Source of the DNA: Thalassotalea crassostreae
Lineage (GTDB): Bacteria > Pseudomonadota > Gammaproteobacteria > Enterobacterales > Alteromonadaceae
DNA length: 64,000 nt
Direction: 5' to 3'
NCBI RefSeq assembly: GCF_001831495.1
Contig: NZ_CP017689.1
Span: 310,001 to 374,000 of the forward strand
Shown here: piece by piece, positions 2,980 through 43,172 of the stretch
Position numbering within the stretch: position 1 is the first letter of the stretch
Layout of the letters: every line of letters starts with the position of its first letter
Translations under genes and position numbers: made by a program
The notes under the pieces: generated by a model
Database searches by the model: none
Told to the model about the DNA's origin: nothing
What the model saw: only the letters and a program-made list of their open reading frames with translations

Positions 2980-4666
2980 TCTTCCTCCTTTCTCAGCGTT
3001 TTTTATAGGCGCGTTACTCATACTATGTACACGCGGTATGGTAAGAAGCGCGGTTATGCTTGCGATTCCAATTTTGAGTGCAATTCATCTGTCAATGGTC
3101 CCAGAAGGGATCTATTTACAGTTCACTCTATTTGATTACCAACTAACACCATATCGTCTTGATAAGTTAAGCCTGATGTTTGGTTATGTTTTTCATATCG
3201 CAGCGTTGATCGGTATTATTTACTCATTGCACCTGCGCGATACAATGCAACAAGTATCAGCAATGCTCTATGCTGGTAGCGCTTTAGGCGCTGTGTTTGC
3301 TGGTGATTTGTTAACATTGTTTGTTTTTTGGGAATTGTTAGCGTTTACGTCGGTATTTCTTATCTGGGCACGCAGAACCGAGCGCTCATTTAAAGCTGGC
3401 ATGCGTTATTTAATTATCCAAGTATTGTCTGGGGTGATTTTACTCGCAGGTACGCTATTTTATCTATTTGAAAACAATACCTTAGAATTTGGCTATATTG
3501 GCTTAGATAATATTTCTGGTTGGTTAATCTTTATCTCTTTTGGTATTAAATGTGCATTTCCTTTTGCCCATAATTGGTTAACCGATGCTTACCCTGAAGC
3601 GACTGTAACAGGAACAGTATTTTTAAGTGCCTTTACTACTAAAGTTGCTGTTTACGCATTAGCTAGAGCCTACCCAGGTACTGAACTTTTAGTTTACATT
3701 GGCGCTGCGATGACGTGTTTCCCAATATTCTTTGCCGTGATCGAAAATGATTTACGCCGTGTATTGGCGTACAGTTTGATTAACCAAGTAGGGTTTATGG
3801 TTGTCGGTATTGGTATCGGTACTGCGCTGGCCATCAATGGTGCTGTTTCTCATGCCTTTAATGATGTAATTTTTAAGGGCTTATTGTTTATGTCAATGGG
3901 TGCTGTACTGCATATGACAGGGCGCATGAATGGTTCTGATTTGGGTGGATTGTATAAAACGATGCCTAAAACAACCATACTATGTATTGTCGGCGCTGCA
4001 TCGATTTCAGCATTCCCACTATTTAGCGGTTTTGTTAGTAAATCGATGGTAATGACTGCAGCAATAGAGCAGGGTTATGATTGGATATGGTTAATGTTAT
4101 TGTTCGCTTCGGCAGGTGTATTCCATCACGCAGGCATTAAAATACCTTATTTTGCTTTCTTTGCTCATGATTCAGGGATCAGAGCAAATGATCCACCTAA
4201 TAATATGCTGTTGGCGATGGCTATTGCAGCAGCACTTTGTATCGCTATTGGTATATACCCGCAAGCACTGTACTCATTGTTACCATATGACACAGGTTAC
4301 AATCCATATGATGCAACGCATGTATTAGCACAAACACAGTTGTTATTCTTTTCTGCATTAGCTTTTGTATGGCTTAACCTTAAAGGTTTATATCCACCTG
4401 AGTTACGCTCTACCCATCTCGATTTTGATTGGGTATATCGTCGCGCAGTTCCAAGTGTGCTGCAGCAGGCGTTTAGTGTACTCTGGCGTTTTGACCGTGT
4501 CTTAAGAGATATGATTAAACAAAGGTTATCTGCTTGCTTTGATTTCTTTGCCGGTAAAAATGATCGAATAAGCATTCTATTATCTCAAAAATACCCTTCA
4601 GGAAGCATGGCTTTATGGGTTGTAGTAATACTCGCGACGTATTTATTGTTAAGTATTGTTCGCTAA
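2966..4666 (+). CDS. Cation/proton antiporter subunit, MrpD/NuoM-like (third large subunit)
   Basis: A 566-residue polytopic protein of the Proton_antipo_M family. The motif GIKCAFPFAHNWLTDAYPEA with downstream FTTKVAVYALARAYPG is a diverged form of the family signature. The usual KAAxxPLHxWLP lysine is shifted, so proton-path residues may differ from the two sister subunits. A C-terminal amphipathic region and a last helix (about residues 545-565) extend beyond the core. The start ATG at 2966 has a strong GGAG six bases upstream and lies inside the preceding gene. Three large antiporter-type subunits in one operon exceed the two of a canonical Mrp system. Confidence 0.87.
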   Translation: MWMIDLPPFSAFFIGALLILCTRGMVRSAVMLAIPILSAIHLSMVPEGIYLQFTLFDYQLTPYRLDKLSLMFGYVFHIAALIGIIYSLHLRDTMQQVSAMLYAGSALGAVFAGDLLTLFVFWELLAFTSVFLIWARRTERSFKAGMRYLIIQVLSGVILLAGTLFYLFENNTLEFGYIGLDNISGWLIFISFGIKCAFPFAHNWLTDAYPEATVTGTVFLSAFTTKVAVYALARAYPGTELLVYIGAAMTCFPIFFAVIENDLRRVLAYSLINQVGFMVVGIGIGTALAINGAVSHAFNDVIFKGLLFMSMGAVLHMTGRMNGSDLGGLYKTMPKTTILCIVGAASISAFPLFSGFVSKSMVMTAAIEQGYDWIWLMLLFASAGVFHHAGIKIPYFAFFAHDSGIRANDPPNNMLLAMAIAAALCIAIGIYPQALYSLLPYDTGYNPYDATHVLAQTQLLFFSALAFVWLNLKGLYPPELRSTHLDFDWVYRRAVPSVLQQAFSVLWRFDRVLRDMIKQRLSACFDFFAGKNDRISILLSQKYPSGSMALWVVVILATYLLLSIVR

Positions 4667-40053: not shown

Positions 40054-40506
40054 TTAGTTAATTTTTTCAACTACATAAGATATGTTATCGCGGCAAACAA
40101 TTGTAGCCTTATCTCCGCGTTTGATTTCACTGCCGTCACCTAAAGCACTCCAGTCAGTGCCTTGAAAATGAATACGGCCTTTTTTATTGCCAGGTCCAAT
40201 GGTGTCAATGACCTCTACTTCTTTACCGAAAATATCTAACTCTTCATCGGTATTCTCGATACTGCTATCACCGCCGACCAACGATTGACCAACGTTACGA
40301 AACGCTAATAACAGCACTATCGATAAAATGAACCAAAGAGTAAATGCATGCATCCAGTTATCGATAATACCGAACTGCAATGTCAGTGCCACAGTAACAG
40401 CAGAAGTACCTAGGAATACCACAATGCCACCGGGAATAACTAATTCGGCAAGCATTAAGAAAAAGCCGATTAGGCCCCATGCCATTACACTGTTTGAAAA
40501 TTCCAT
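40054..40506 (-). CDS. NfeD-family protein (short form)
   Basis: A 150-residue short NfeD: three to four membrane helices (residues 5-75) and a C-terminal OB-fold (residues 90-150, with GRIHFQGTDWSALGDG and GDKATIVCRDNISYVV). The ATG at 40506 has AAGGAG upstream. Short NfeD proteins lie beside stomatins and help place them in membrane domains, as here with two SPFH genes downstream. Confidence 0.88.
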   Translation of the reverse strand: MEFSNSVMAWGLIGFFLMLAELVIPGGIVVFLGTSAVTVALTLQFGIIDNWMHAFTLWFILSIVLLLAFRNVGQSLVGGDSSIENTDEELDIFGKEVEVIDTIGPGNKKGRIHFQGTDWSALGDGSEIKRGDKATIVCRDNISYVVEKIN

Positions 40507-40684
40507 AAGTGACTCCTTTTTATCAAGTGATGAATCTTTGATAAACACTTTGATTGTTAATAAGTTGTTAGATACCTTAGCAAATATTTTAGTAAAATGC
40601 GACATAATATGTCACAAAGTATTTCTGGTGCGGTTAAAAATTAGCACCAAATTAAACTAAAACAGCCATTTTTATTGGTTTTTT

Positions 40685-41064
40685 GGGGCGTCAAAAAACT
40701 ATACATCCTTGTGTTTTTTGCATGTGAAGTTGGGGACATATGGGTAGGCTTCGAATTAAATACCATCCATGGCAATTCGACATACCTCACTTCCTGTGGG
40801 GCGTCAAAAAACTATACATCCTTGTGTTTTTTGCATACAAAGTAGAGGACATATGGGTAGGCGTCGAATTAAATACCATCCATGGCAATTCGACATACCC
40901 CACTTCCTGTGGGGCGTCAAAAAACTATACATCCTTGTGTTTTTTGCATACAAAGTAGAGGACATATGGGTAGGCGTCGAATTAAATACCATCCATGGCA
41001 ATTCGACATACCCCACTTCCTGTGGGGCGTCAAAAAACTATACATCCTTGTGTTTTTTGCATAC
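40685..41064. repeat. Tandem repeat, 113-bp unit, 3.4 copies
   Basis: Units start at 40685, 40798, 40911 and 41024 (GGGGCGTCAAAAAACTATAC...). The second and third are identical; the first differs at several bases; the fourth stops after 41 bp. Each unit holds three inverted repeats: CAAAAAAC/GTTTTTTG, GTCGAATT/AATTCGAC and CCCCAC/GTGGGG. Because 113 is not a multiple of three, each unit shifts frame, and the overlapping frames open through the array are artefacts. Confidence 0.97.
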
Positions 41065-41080
41065 CTAACGTCCTGTTAGG
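40685..41080. ncRNA. Candidate structured RNA with multiple GGA (or UCC) hairpin loops
   Basis: Read on the minus strand, all hairpin loops show GGA. ACAAGGATGT occurs at 40703-40712, 40816-40825, 40929-40938 and 41042-41051. CATGGATGG occurs at 40763, 40876 and 40989. AGGAA occurs at 40791, 40904 and 41017, and AGGAC at 41070. That is eleven in about 400 nt, like CsrB/RsmX sponges; ACACAAGGATGT matches the CsrA SELEX consensus at 11 of 12 positions. The hairpin at 41064-41080 (CCTAAC/GTTAGG) keeps pairing with different bases from CCCCAC/GTGGGG. On the plus strand the loops are UCC-rich and a T7 terminator follows. The strand is undecided. Confidence 0.55.
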
Positions 41081-41081
41081 C

Positions 41082-41107
41082 AAAAACCTGCAGGAGCAGG
41101 TTTTTTT
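41082..41107. terminator. Terminator hairpin between hutU and the repeat array
   Basis: Stem AAAAACCTGC / GCAGGTTTTT with loop AGGA, seven T's on the plus strand and five on the minus strand. It could end hutU (minus) or a plus-strand RNA from the array. Confidence 0.8.
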
Positions 41108-41150: not shown

Positions 41151-43172
41151 TTAAAATAAGTTATCTAAAATGTTGTCTTCAACAAGGTTTGCTAAAGTCA
41201 CTTTGAGCTTTGGTGTTCTCGCCATTTCACGTTTAATAGCAAAATTAGCTTCTTCATTTCGAGCCCAGCTGCGTCGAGCAATGCCATTGTTCACATCAAA
41301 TAACAGCATAGACTTTAATCTACGTTCAGCATCGGCGCTACCGTCTAACAGCATACCAAAACCGCCGTTGGTCACTTCACCCCAACCGACACCGCCGCCG
41401 TTATGAATTGATACCCACGTAGCACCGCGGAAGCTATCACCAATAACGTTGTGAATTGCCATGTCAGCAGTAAAGCGACTACCATCATAGATGTTAGACG
41501 TTTCTCTAAATGGAGAGTCGGTACCACTAACATCGTGATGATCTCGACCTAATACAACTGGACCAATTTCACCGCTATTTATCGCATCGTTAAATGCTTT
41601 AGCAATCTCAATTCGACCTTGCGCATCGGCATAAAGAATGCGAGCTTGTGAGCCAACCACTAACTTGTTCTGTTTAGCGTCTTTTATCCAAGTAATGTTG
41701 TCTTGCATTTGTTGCTGAATTTCTTCCGGCGACTCTTCCATAATTTTAGTTAAAACACGTGCTGCAATGGCATCTGTCTTATCTAAGTCTTCTGGCTTGC
41801 CAGAAGCACATACCCAGCGGAATGGGCCAAAGCCGTAGTCAAAACACATAGGGCCAAGAATATCTTGAACATATGAAGGGTATTTAAAATCAACACCGTT
41901 TTCAGCCATAACATCACCGCCGGCGCGAGAGGCCTCTAATAAGAATGCGTTACCGTAATCAAAGAAATAGGTACCACGGGCAGTATGCTTGTTGACGGCA
42001 TCTGCATGACGTTTCAATGTTTGTTGAACTTTAACTTTGAAAACTTCAGGCTCTTCACGAATTAATCGATTCGACTCTTCATAACTAATATCAACCGGAT
42101 AGTAACCGCCTGACCAAGGGTTATGCAAAGATGTTTGGTCTGAACCTAAGTGCACAAATATTTTGTGCTCATAGAACGCTTCCCATACATCAACAATATT
42201 ACCGATGTATGCAATAGACACGACTTCTTCATTTGCTTGTGCTTCATTAACGCGCTTGATTAGTGCGTCCATGTTATCGATAAGCTCATCAACCCAACCT
42301 TGCTGGTGACGCTTTATCGCAGCTTTTGGGTTCACTTCGGCACATACAGTAATACAGTTTGCGATATTACCTGCTTTTGGTTGAGCGCCACTCATACCGC
42401 CTAAACCAGCGGTTAAGAAGATTTTACCTTTTGAAGATTCGCCTTTGTTTAATACTTTACGGAATGCGTTCATTACCGTAATTGTTGTACCGTGAACAAT
42501 ACCTTGTGGACCGATATACATAAATGAACCGGCGGTCATTTGTCCGTATTGACTCACACCTAAGGCATTAAACTTTTCCCAATCATCTGGTTGCGAATAA
42601 TTAGGGATCATCATTCCGTTGGTTACAACCACACGTGGCGCATCAACTGATGATGGAAACAGTCCCATAGGGTGACCAGAATATAAGTGTAGAGTTTGAT
42701 CGCTCTCCATCTCACTTAAATATTTCATTGCTAATAGGTATTGTGCCCAGTTTTGGAACACGGCACCGTTACCACCATAGGTAATAAGTTCTTCAGGGTG
42801 CTGTGCTACAGCAGGATCAAGGTTATTATCAACCATCAGCATGATTGCCGCAGCTTGCTCACATTTAGCAGGGTAATTACTTACCGAACGTGCTTTTAAA
42901 TCGTAGCTAGGTTTAAAACGGTACATGTAAATACGACCAAAATCTTTTAATTCCTGGGCGAATTCTTGGGCAAGTTCTTTATGCCATTCTTTTGGGAAAT
43001 AGCGTAATGCATTTCTTAAAGCTAGCTGCTTTTCTTCATTATTAAGAATGTCTTTTCGCTTAGGAGCGCGGTTAGCATCTTGCGGGTACGGCTTAGCTGC
43101 AGGCAATTCACTCGGAATACCTTGCTTAATCTGTTGCTGAAAATCGTCTAAATTTGTCATTTTGTTTTCCAT
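41151..43172 (-). CDS. hutU: Urocanate hydratase, long form
   Basis: Second step of histidine degradation: urocanate to imidazolonepropionate, NAD-dependent, cytoplasmic. It has 673 residues, longer than the classical 555-residue enzyme, as in the long urocanase clade of Colwellia and Bacteroidetes. Seen: NAD-binding GLGGMSGAQPKAG, FDYGFGPFRWVCASG with the family Cys, and GRDHHDVSGTDSPFRET. It is 17 bp after hutH in the operon hutC-hutH-hutU. hutI and hutG are not in the window. Confidence 0.96.
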   Translation of the reverse strand: MENKMTNLDDFQQQIKQGIPSELPAAKPYPQDANRAPKRKDILNNEEKQLALRNALRYFPKEWHKELAQEFAQELKDFGRIYMYRFKPSYDLKARSVSNYPAKCEQAAAIMLMVDNNLDPAVAQHPEELITYGGNGAVFQNWAQYLLAMKYLSEMESDQTLHLYSGHPMGLFPSSVDAPRVVVTNGMMIPNYSQPDDWEKFNALGVSQYGQMTAGSFMYIGPQGIVHGTTITVMNAFRKVLNKGESSKGKIFLTAGLGGMSGAQPKAGNIANCITVCAEVNPKAAIKRHQQGWVDELIDNMDALIKRVNEAQANEEVVSIAYIGNIVDVWEAFYEHKIFVHLGSDQTSLHNPWSGGYYPVDISYEESNRLIREEPEVFKVKVQQTLKRHADAVNKHTARGTYFFDYGNAFLLEASRAGGDVMAENGVDFKYPSYVQDILGPMCFDYGFGPFRWVCASGKPEDLDKTDAIAARVLTKIMEESPEEIQQQMQDNITWIKDAKQNKLVVGSQARILYADAQGRIEIAKAFNDAINSGEIGPVVLGRDHHDVSGTDSPFRETSNIYDGSRFTADMAIHNVIGDSFRGATWVSIHNGGGVGWGEVTNGGFGMLLDGSADAERRLKSMLLFDVNNGIARRSWARNEEANFAIKREMARTPKLKVTLANLVEDNILDNLF

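Follow-up and report, generated by a model that had tools for sequence, protein, structure and literature searches.

A dispersed family of two-hairpin repeats with GGA-bearing loops behind terminators: a possible scattered CsrA decoy

The tandem hairpin array lying behind hutU in the 64-kb window (the whole 64,000-nt stretch of DNA analysed here) belongs to a family of dispersed, mosaic repeats and is not a lone sponge gene. The family unit is approximately 51 nt long and consists of two hairpins. The family, its fold, its strand and its placement behind T-tracts are well supported, and no earlier description of the family was found in the open-licence literature searched. Our leading explanation, to which we give slightly less than an even chance, is that the unit is a mobile-like repeat whose hairpins, once in read-through RNA, would bind CsrA, and that the copies together would form a scattered decoy. 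A first-pass annotation had interpreted the array as a CsrB/RsmX-like sponge RNA or, on the opposite strand, as an anti-Shine-Dalgarno RNA; the array is confirmed as a real observation, and that interpretation is partly supported.

In the window, TRF placed a 113-bp unit in 3.4 copies (97% matches) at 40684-41064, in agreement with the first-pass annotation. Units 2 and 3 are identical, as it had stated, and unit 1 differs from either at 7 positions. A CRISPR array (short repeats, unique spacers) was rejected: what repeats is the entire 113-bp unit, and its second and third copies are identical. So was a coding repeat, since a 99-aa plus-strand ORF runs through the array; both exclusions had been made before and hold. 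The trinucleotide GGA occurs 11 times on the minus strand of the array and 3 times on the plus strand. On the minus strand, the array contains four copies of hairpin B1, bearing ACACAAGGATGT, three of A2, CCCCACAGGAAGTGRGG, and three of B2, CCATGGATGG within TCGAATT/AATTCGA. Reading this strand from the hutU stop, the hairpin AAAAACCTGC-TCCT-GCAGGTTTTT (41082-41105) is followed by GCC, A1 and B1, and then by repeats of A2, B2, the inverted degenerate hairpin X, and B1 (Table 1). By eye comparison with other loci, X is read as an inverted A-type hairpin. A1 corresponds to the extra hairpin proposed at 41064-41080, which does fold as a hairpin. The plus-strand terminator reported earlier is likewise present: the terminator scan listed the 41082-41105 hairpin on the plus strand only, and with its T7 it can also act on that strand. 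Of the two flanking gene names, hutU was borne out by NCBIfam TIGR01228, and nfeD received no NCBIfam match. The start of the latter ORF is probably at 40506, behind AAGGAGT (by eye). HutU has 673 aa, of which the NCBIfam profile covers residues 101-650, leaving an N-terminal extension.

Table 1. Coordinates of the array, its hairpins and the flanking genes in the window
Feature	Position	Strand	Basis or remark
Whole tandem array, 113-bp unit	40684..41080	- (hutU sense)	TRF, model matches, hairpin coordinates
Intrinsic-terminator-like hairpin behind hutU, T5 then GCC of A1	41082..41105	-	Sequence
Hairpin A1, CCTAAC-AGGAC-GTTAGG, adjoining T-tract	41064..41080	-	Hairpin coordinates; folds as hairpin
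Hairpin B1 copy 4 (CAAAAAAC ... ACAAGGATGT ... GTTTTTTG)	41031..41059	-	Hairpin coordinates
Hairpin B1 copy 3	40918..40946	-	Copies 2 and 1 at 40805-40833 and 40692-40720
Hairpin A2 unit 3 (CCCCAC-AGGAA-GTGGGG)	41011..41027	-	Model match, fold, hairpin coordinates
Hairpin A2 unit 2	40898..40914	-	Model match, hairpin coordinates
Hairpin A2 unit 1, one change (CCCCAC/GTGAGG)	40785-40801	-	Hairpin coordinates
Hairpin B2 unit 3, outer stem TCGAATT/AATTCGA, ATGGA in loop	40977..41006	-	Model, fold, coordinates
Hairpin B2 unit 2	40864..40893	-	Model match; unit 1 copy at 40751-40780
Degenerate inverted hairpin X	40947..40972	+	Further copies at 40834-40859 and 40721-40746
hutU (urocanate hydratase), upstream of array	41151..43172	-	NCBIfam TIGR01228 above cut-off; ORF
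ORF downstream of array	40054..40605	-	ORF listing

A DNA search of the genome carrying the window returned four further places resembling the array. A loose pattern gave 5 matches in this genome and 0 in the reversed control; over 146 genomes it matched 82, a count that was discarded because many stems were unpaired and the reversed control matched too. A stricter pattern, run over the public genome collection, yielded 15 loci, located in Thalassomonas (2), Thalassotalea, Agaribacterium (2), an Arenicella MAG, an Algicola MAG, seven MAGs under the labels Gammaproteobacteria, Lysobacterales or Chromatiales, and an acidobacterial MAG; the last contained no unit and was taken as chance. A covariance model of the two-hairpin unit was built from 10 sequences, none of them from the window (13 units were aligned, one was dropped, then two with a shifted hairpin B). 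Applied to the window, this model matched four stretches of the array, all on the minus strand (E = 1.3e-6, 1.3e-6, 4.5e-4 and 0.0086), and nothing outside the array at E up to 10. The minus strand, on which the first-pass annotation saw the GGA loops, is the modelled strand here, a result now extended over many loci.

Over the whole of the same genome, 33 model matches at E up to 0.1 (27 at 0.001) fell into 19 clusters. The units occur in both orientations, and on both strands even within single arrays, giving a mosaic; part of each array accordingly exposes UCC, which counts against a CsrA decoy. At E up to 0.001 and with this genome counted, the model matched at least 24 of 59 genomes in the sample of relatives, at least 73 of 369 in the class and at least 33 of 398 in the phylum, 18 of the last 33 belonging to one family outside the class; these counts are lower bounds, since the larger searches applied stricter filters and capped the candidates taken from each genome. 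The covariance-model search suggested in the first-pass annotation did therefore match a unit, of two hairpins, in many related genomes. One genome (G027) alone had at least 94 model matches, many of them tandem with periods of 51-52 nt. With the queries used, searches for carriage by phages, viruses and plasmids gave no match.

These results bear on the possibility of a dedicated CsrB/RsmX-like sponge gene at the array locus. Such a gene would account for the eleven GGA of the minus strand, but the family is dispersed, and scatter over the genome, which the first-pass annotation had itself listed as evidence against its reading, was found in both orientations. Promoter-like sites at the array numbered 2, with 2.2 expected from shuffles, and the Rfam comparison proposed for CsrB/RsmX gave nothing at the gathering score and no Csr RNA among the weak matches, which also removed a known Rfam RNA from consideration. 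We regard a sponge gene at this site as very unlikely.

For the analysis of the fold, 142 matches from 85 chosen loci, making 132 distinct rows, were fitted to the model. Overlapping or duplicate loci of the window's own genome and most loose-pattern loci (L012-L041) were left out, as were L054 (same as L034), L055 (no unit, ascribed to chance), L083 and L085 (overlap), and L079 (weak, from G109). In this alignment 97.2% of the cells pair, and changes on both sides were observed at 14 of 14 pairs, a signal that single-stranded DNA hairpins would give as well. Covariation was 0.545, compared with 0.165 in shuffled and at most 0.075 in slid alignments, and 0 of 500 shuffles were as high; an earlier MAFFT alignment of 12 sequences had given 0.406 (shuffled, 0.154; slid, at most 0.140). 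The earlier claim that a folded strand has been under evolution is thus upheld by compensatory stems across many loci. Since G-U cells (67) exceed A-C cells (18) on the modelled strand, this strand is taken to be the folding one; hairpins of single-stranded DNA would show this excess too.

Four of five single units folded alone adopted the modelled structure (z -2.43 to -4.27); from the window stretch 41036-41085 (A1/B1, cut short), only A1 formed (z -1.70). The whole window unit folded better on the plus strand (-34.8 kcal/mol, z -3.66) than on the minus strand (-31.5, z -2.39). In the minus-strand fold, B1 has its GGA paired to a UCC in the fourth, inverted hairpin X. Of the earlier statement that eleven loops expose GGA on the minus strand, the number is correct, and the loops are not all predicted to be open because of this pairing. 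Both predictions, the paired GGA of B1 and the better plus-strand fold, would count against a decoy. The folding energies and the T7 terminator on the plus strand agree with the other proposal of the first-pass annotation, namely a plus-strand RNA whose UCC-rich loops pair with Shine-Dalgarno sequences. We consider this extremely unlikely, as promoter-like sites did not exceed those in shuffles, the nearby plus-strand ORFs are only mechanical ones of the ORF listing, and both the G-U counts and the orientation at T-tracts favour the minus strand.

Of 136 distinct units, 120 had GGA in loop A and 127 had it in loop B, fractions that are partly selected because the model was built from GGA-bearing units. 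The commonest loops were AGGAU or ANGGA with U, A or C as the next base, and the distance between the two GGA was 25 or 26 nt in 105 of the 106 units measured. The CsrA-type loops of the earlier reading are accordingly found, in ANGGA-like form, across many loci. The hutU site of G006, which was located by position, is less subject to bias: its array starts behind a T-tract with GTTC-ATGGAA-GAAC and contains two inverted units that the model recognises. In a test scoring GGA in loops of perfect stems, the first 150 nt of this array contained 2 (2 of 1000 shuffles as high). One window unit contained one (stem of at least 5; 68 of 2000 shuffles as high), which also counts against a decoy, and its plus strand contained zero. 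A translated micro-ORF was considered, since 119 of 136 units have an ATG in the linker, at start-codon-like spacing after the GGA of hairpin A. It was set aside because some units show early in-frame stops (by eye) and the tandem period is 51 in some cases and 52 in others.

The SELEX consensus for CsrA is RUACARGGAUGU, with GGA mostly in hairpin loops (PMC7652899), the RsmA/RsmN motif is ANGGAN (PMC3791407), and the motif from CsrA RIP-seq in Pseudoalteromonas fuliginea is AuGGA (PMC11882849). The hcnA RNA GGGCUUCACGGAUGAAGCCC is described as a high-affinity RsmE ligand whose complex has been solved (PDB 2JPP; PMC13287468, PMC11882435). Two hairpin-B copies of the genome studied here, near 3778867 and 3779007, have 16 consecutive nucleotides in common with this RNA. 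The agreement could be chance, given the many different stems of the family, and the two copies are concrete candidate ligands. Judged by sequence, loop and stem appear to agree with CsrA/RsmE ligands, and RNA of the unit probably binds CsrA in vitro; a role of this RNA in the Csr regulation of living cells is doubtful, though a real possibility.

The genome carrying the window has one CsrA gene, canonical-looking by eye. A CsrA match was present in 69 of 73 genomes that have the element and in 244 of 296 that lack it (Fisher p 0.0099), a comparison of lists by eye in which genome size and completeness are confounders. The four element-positive genomes with no CsrA match speak against a decoy, and a true absence of CsrA from such genomes would weigh against any CsrA reading. 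They are G268 (95% complete), G382, G244 and G359 (55-77%); G268 and G382 belong to one genus.

Placement was assessed on 111 units that had not been found by the T-tract pattern. At least 5 T within 8 nt upstream were present in 29, compared with 2 units having at least 5 A upstream, 1 having T downstream and 0 having A downstream. After removal of two internal T-runs of the window array, 27 of the 111 directly followed a terminator-like T-tract in sense orientation and 0 had the mirror arrangement; three of the 27 had also served, with other locus numbers, to train the model. A hairpin ahead of the T-tract was plain by eye in 26 of the 27, the exception being L084. The 111 loci are the best-scoring ones, which favours likeness to a training set itself mostly linked to T-tracts; training on such GGA-bearing units biases the loop and placement counts alike and is to be set against the decoy.

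In the genome carrying the window, hairpin A lies in sense directly behind a T-tract in 12 of the 19 clusters; in one of the 12 the T-tract is interrupted, and in two the model-matching units are inverted. The other 7 lie elsewhere, a further point against a decoy. In the window, the arrangement is on the minus strand behind hutU, where the hairpin is followed by TTTTT and GCC. A hairpin that might form a second terminator was found within 900 nt downstream in 4 of 6 views of this genome scanned, a count made without shuffle control. The hosts include the sRNA SdsR in two species (Rfam, above threshold) and the interval from polA to engB (both genes identified by eye), which is the position of Spot 42 in E. 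coli. Other copies are near rRNA and tRNA genes, and two, in 23S-5S spacers, are antisense to the rRNA (by eye), an orientation that does not favour a decoy. Copies in 23S-5S spacers, or in duplicated stretches beside 5S- or tRNA-like genes, were seen at L064, L086, L092, L111 and L205, the RNAs being identified by eye.

The strict position behind T-tracts, that behind SdsR in two species included, would also be expected of a terminator-linked cis RNA element acting in 3'-end stability, fail-safe termination or processing and having nothing to do with CsrA. This explanation leaves ANGGA in both loops unaccounted for, as well as the 7 of 19 clusters located elsewhere, and it is considered improbable.

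Two other features were noticed. The T-tract at 1405925 ends a non-coding stretch (minus strand of L199, about 3070-3500), which shows partial conservation in Thalassotalea litorea and is possibly an undescribed sRNA gene; it had no Rfam match at E up to 0.05. At L002:2324-2399, near a small heat-shock-like gene, a ROSE-type thermometer is weakly matched, at 35.7 bits against a threshold of 65.

Gain and loss were followed at the hutU site. Each of the 15 genomes of the genus gave a hutU match; the sequence behind the gene was read for up to 620 nt in the 13 close orthologues, two matches of 36-37% identity being excluded. Arrays of differing sequence were present in 2 of the 13, and the array was absent from 11, which counts against a decoy. 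In G001, for example, hutU, a terminator and an nfeD-like gene follow one another with no array between. At two orthologous sites, SdsR (in G013) and locus 1405925 compared with T. litorea, hairpin A behind the T-tract is kept and the rest has changed; both pairs were picked because both copies matched the pattern, and they show persistence and not frequency. In a RAYT flank, approximately 51 nt, corresponding to one unit, lie inside a REPIN of G470, and the orthologous REPIN upstream in G372 is without the unit.

Such gain and loss, at hutU and within the REPIN, point to the main rival explanation, a selfish BIME/REP-like DNA repeat. Its hairpins would be substrates of some mobility machinery that inserts them behind T-tracts, with the ANGGA loops as the recognition signal of that machinery and no role in Csr. 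Dispersed copies in both orientations, mosaic arrays, the tandem copies at 51-52 nt in the genome with at least 94 matches, and the strict junction and orientation at T-tracts are all in its favour. Against it stand the persistence of hairpin A at the two orthologous sites and the Y1 transposases, none of which could be linked to the family at the sites inspected. The Y1 gene of the window's own genome is flanked by other repeats and not by family units, G027, with the most matches in the sample of relatives, has no Y1 match, and the surroundings of Y1 genes at 31 of 42 places yielded no more than 6 matches at E up to 1, of which two fell within another REP. We rate a selfish repeat as a serious possibility, although well short of probable.

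Several observations were made around Y1 genes. At L115 (genome 2597224-2597553), a Y1 gene lies between GGGTCAGATC-type repeats, and repeats of this type also lie beside several hairpin arrays of the same genome (ends of L010 and L206). In G470, units are nested in REPs of the GGCGGAC...GTCCGCC type on both sides of a RAYT-like gene; the coordinates for this nesting and the orthologous site are L163:1288-1360 and 2068-2145, and L161, minus strand, about 1940-1970. A RAYT link drawn from units on both sides of the Y1 gene at L163 was dropped, both units being inside the REPs of that gene. At L162:1660-1740 (G277), a short Y1 transposase match has a unit a few bases away, which has perhaps inserted into or truncated the gene.

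For the scattered decoy, the following mechanism is proposed. The unit would act as a pair of RNA hairpins with ANGGA-type loops, in many cases placed in sense just behind the T-tract of an intrinsic terminator. RNA carrying CsrA-ligand hairpins would arise mainly from transcription running through the terminator, here that of hutU on the minus strand. The copies would jointly titrate CsrA, each at a dose set by host-gene expression and read-through. A genome-wide distributed CsrA sponge, in which mobile two-hairpin ligands at many terminators form a common sink in many bacteria, is the broadest form of the proposal and is on the unlikely side. If true, gain and loss of copies would re-tune the Csr network quickly, beside any CsrB-type gene. 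Should the hairpins bind CsrA, many Gammaproteobacteria would have, as part of their Csr control, a scattered and fast-evolving read-through sink, visible only through whole-genome comparison. If they do not, the fixed ANGGA loop and the strict terminator junction across many families would still need explaining.

Group IIC introns insert behind intrinsic terminators in sense orientation, and the present unit resembles them in this respect; unlike them, it has no reverse transcriptase and its start is not group II-like (by eye). REP and BIME elements are dispersed intergenic palindromes with mosaic arrays and alternating orientation, all of which the present unit shares. It differs from them in being loop-conserved and stem-variable, in having two hairpins and in its sense placement behind T-tracts; they have RAYT transposases, whereas no linked Y1 gene was found for it in the places tested. 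In Pseudomonas putida, palindromic intergenic RNAs flanking ISPpu8 were recovered with RsmA, RsmE and RsmI (PMC7937890), and they are, by description, repeated like the unit. Taken as analogies, these IS-linked RNAs, a 3'-UTR RNA sequestering RsmA and rrn read-through RNAs may count as precedents for the decoy.

With CsrB/CsrC, RsmX/Y/Z and Pf1-Pf3, the family has in common many GGA in hairpin loops and CsrA as the likely ligand; Pf1, Pf2 and Pf3 carry 25, 21 and 9 GGA (PMC11882849). Those sponges are single genes with a promoter and a terminator, whereas the unit is dispersed, lies behind terminators, showed no promoter excess in the window and had no Rfam match at threshold. RsmU of Xanthomonas campestris is derived from a 3'-UTR and sequesters RsmA; it is described as having no Rfam homologue and as limited to Xanthomonas, and its mutant with all four GGA changed still bound RsmA (PMC7694677). 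Compared by description, it is a single locus, unlike the dispersed unit. RrA, RrB and RrF are read-through RNAs from between the dual rrn terminators of E. coli, have GGA in loops, as does the present unit, and are described as binding CsrA in vitro (PMC8144298). By the same kind of comparison, they are three near-identical rrn copies, whereas the unit described here is located behind many different genes.
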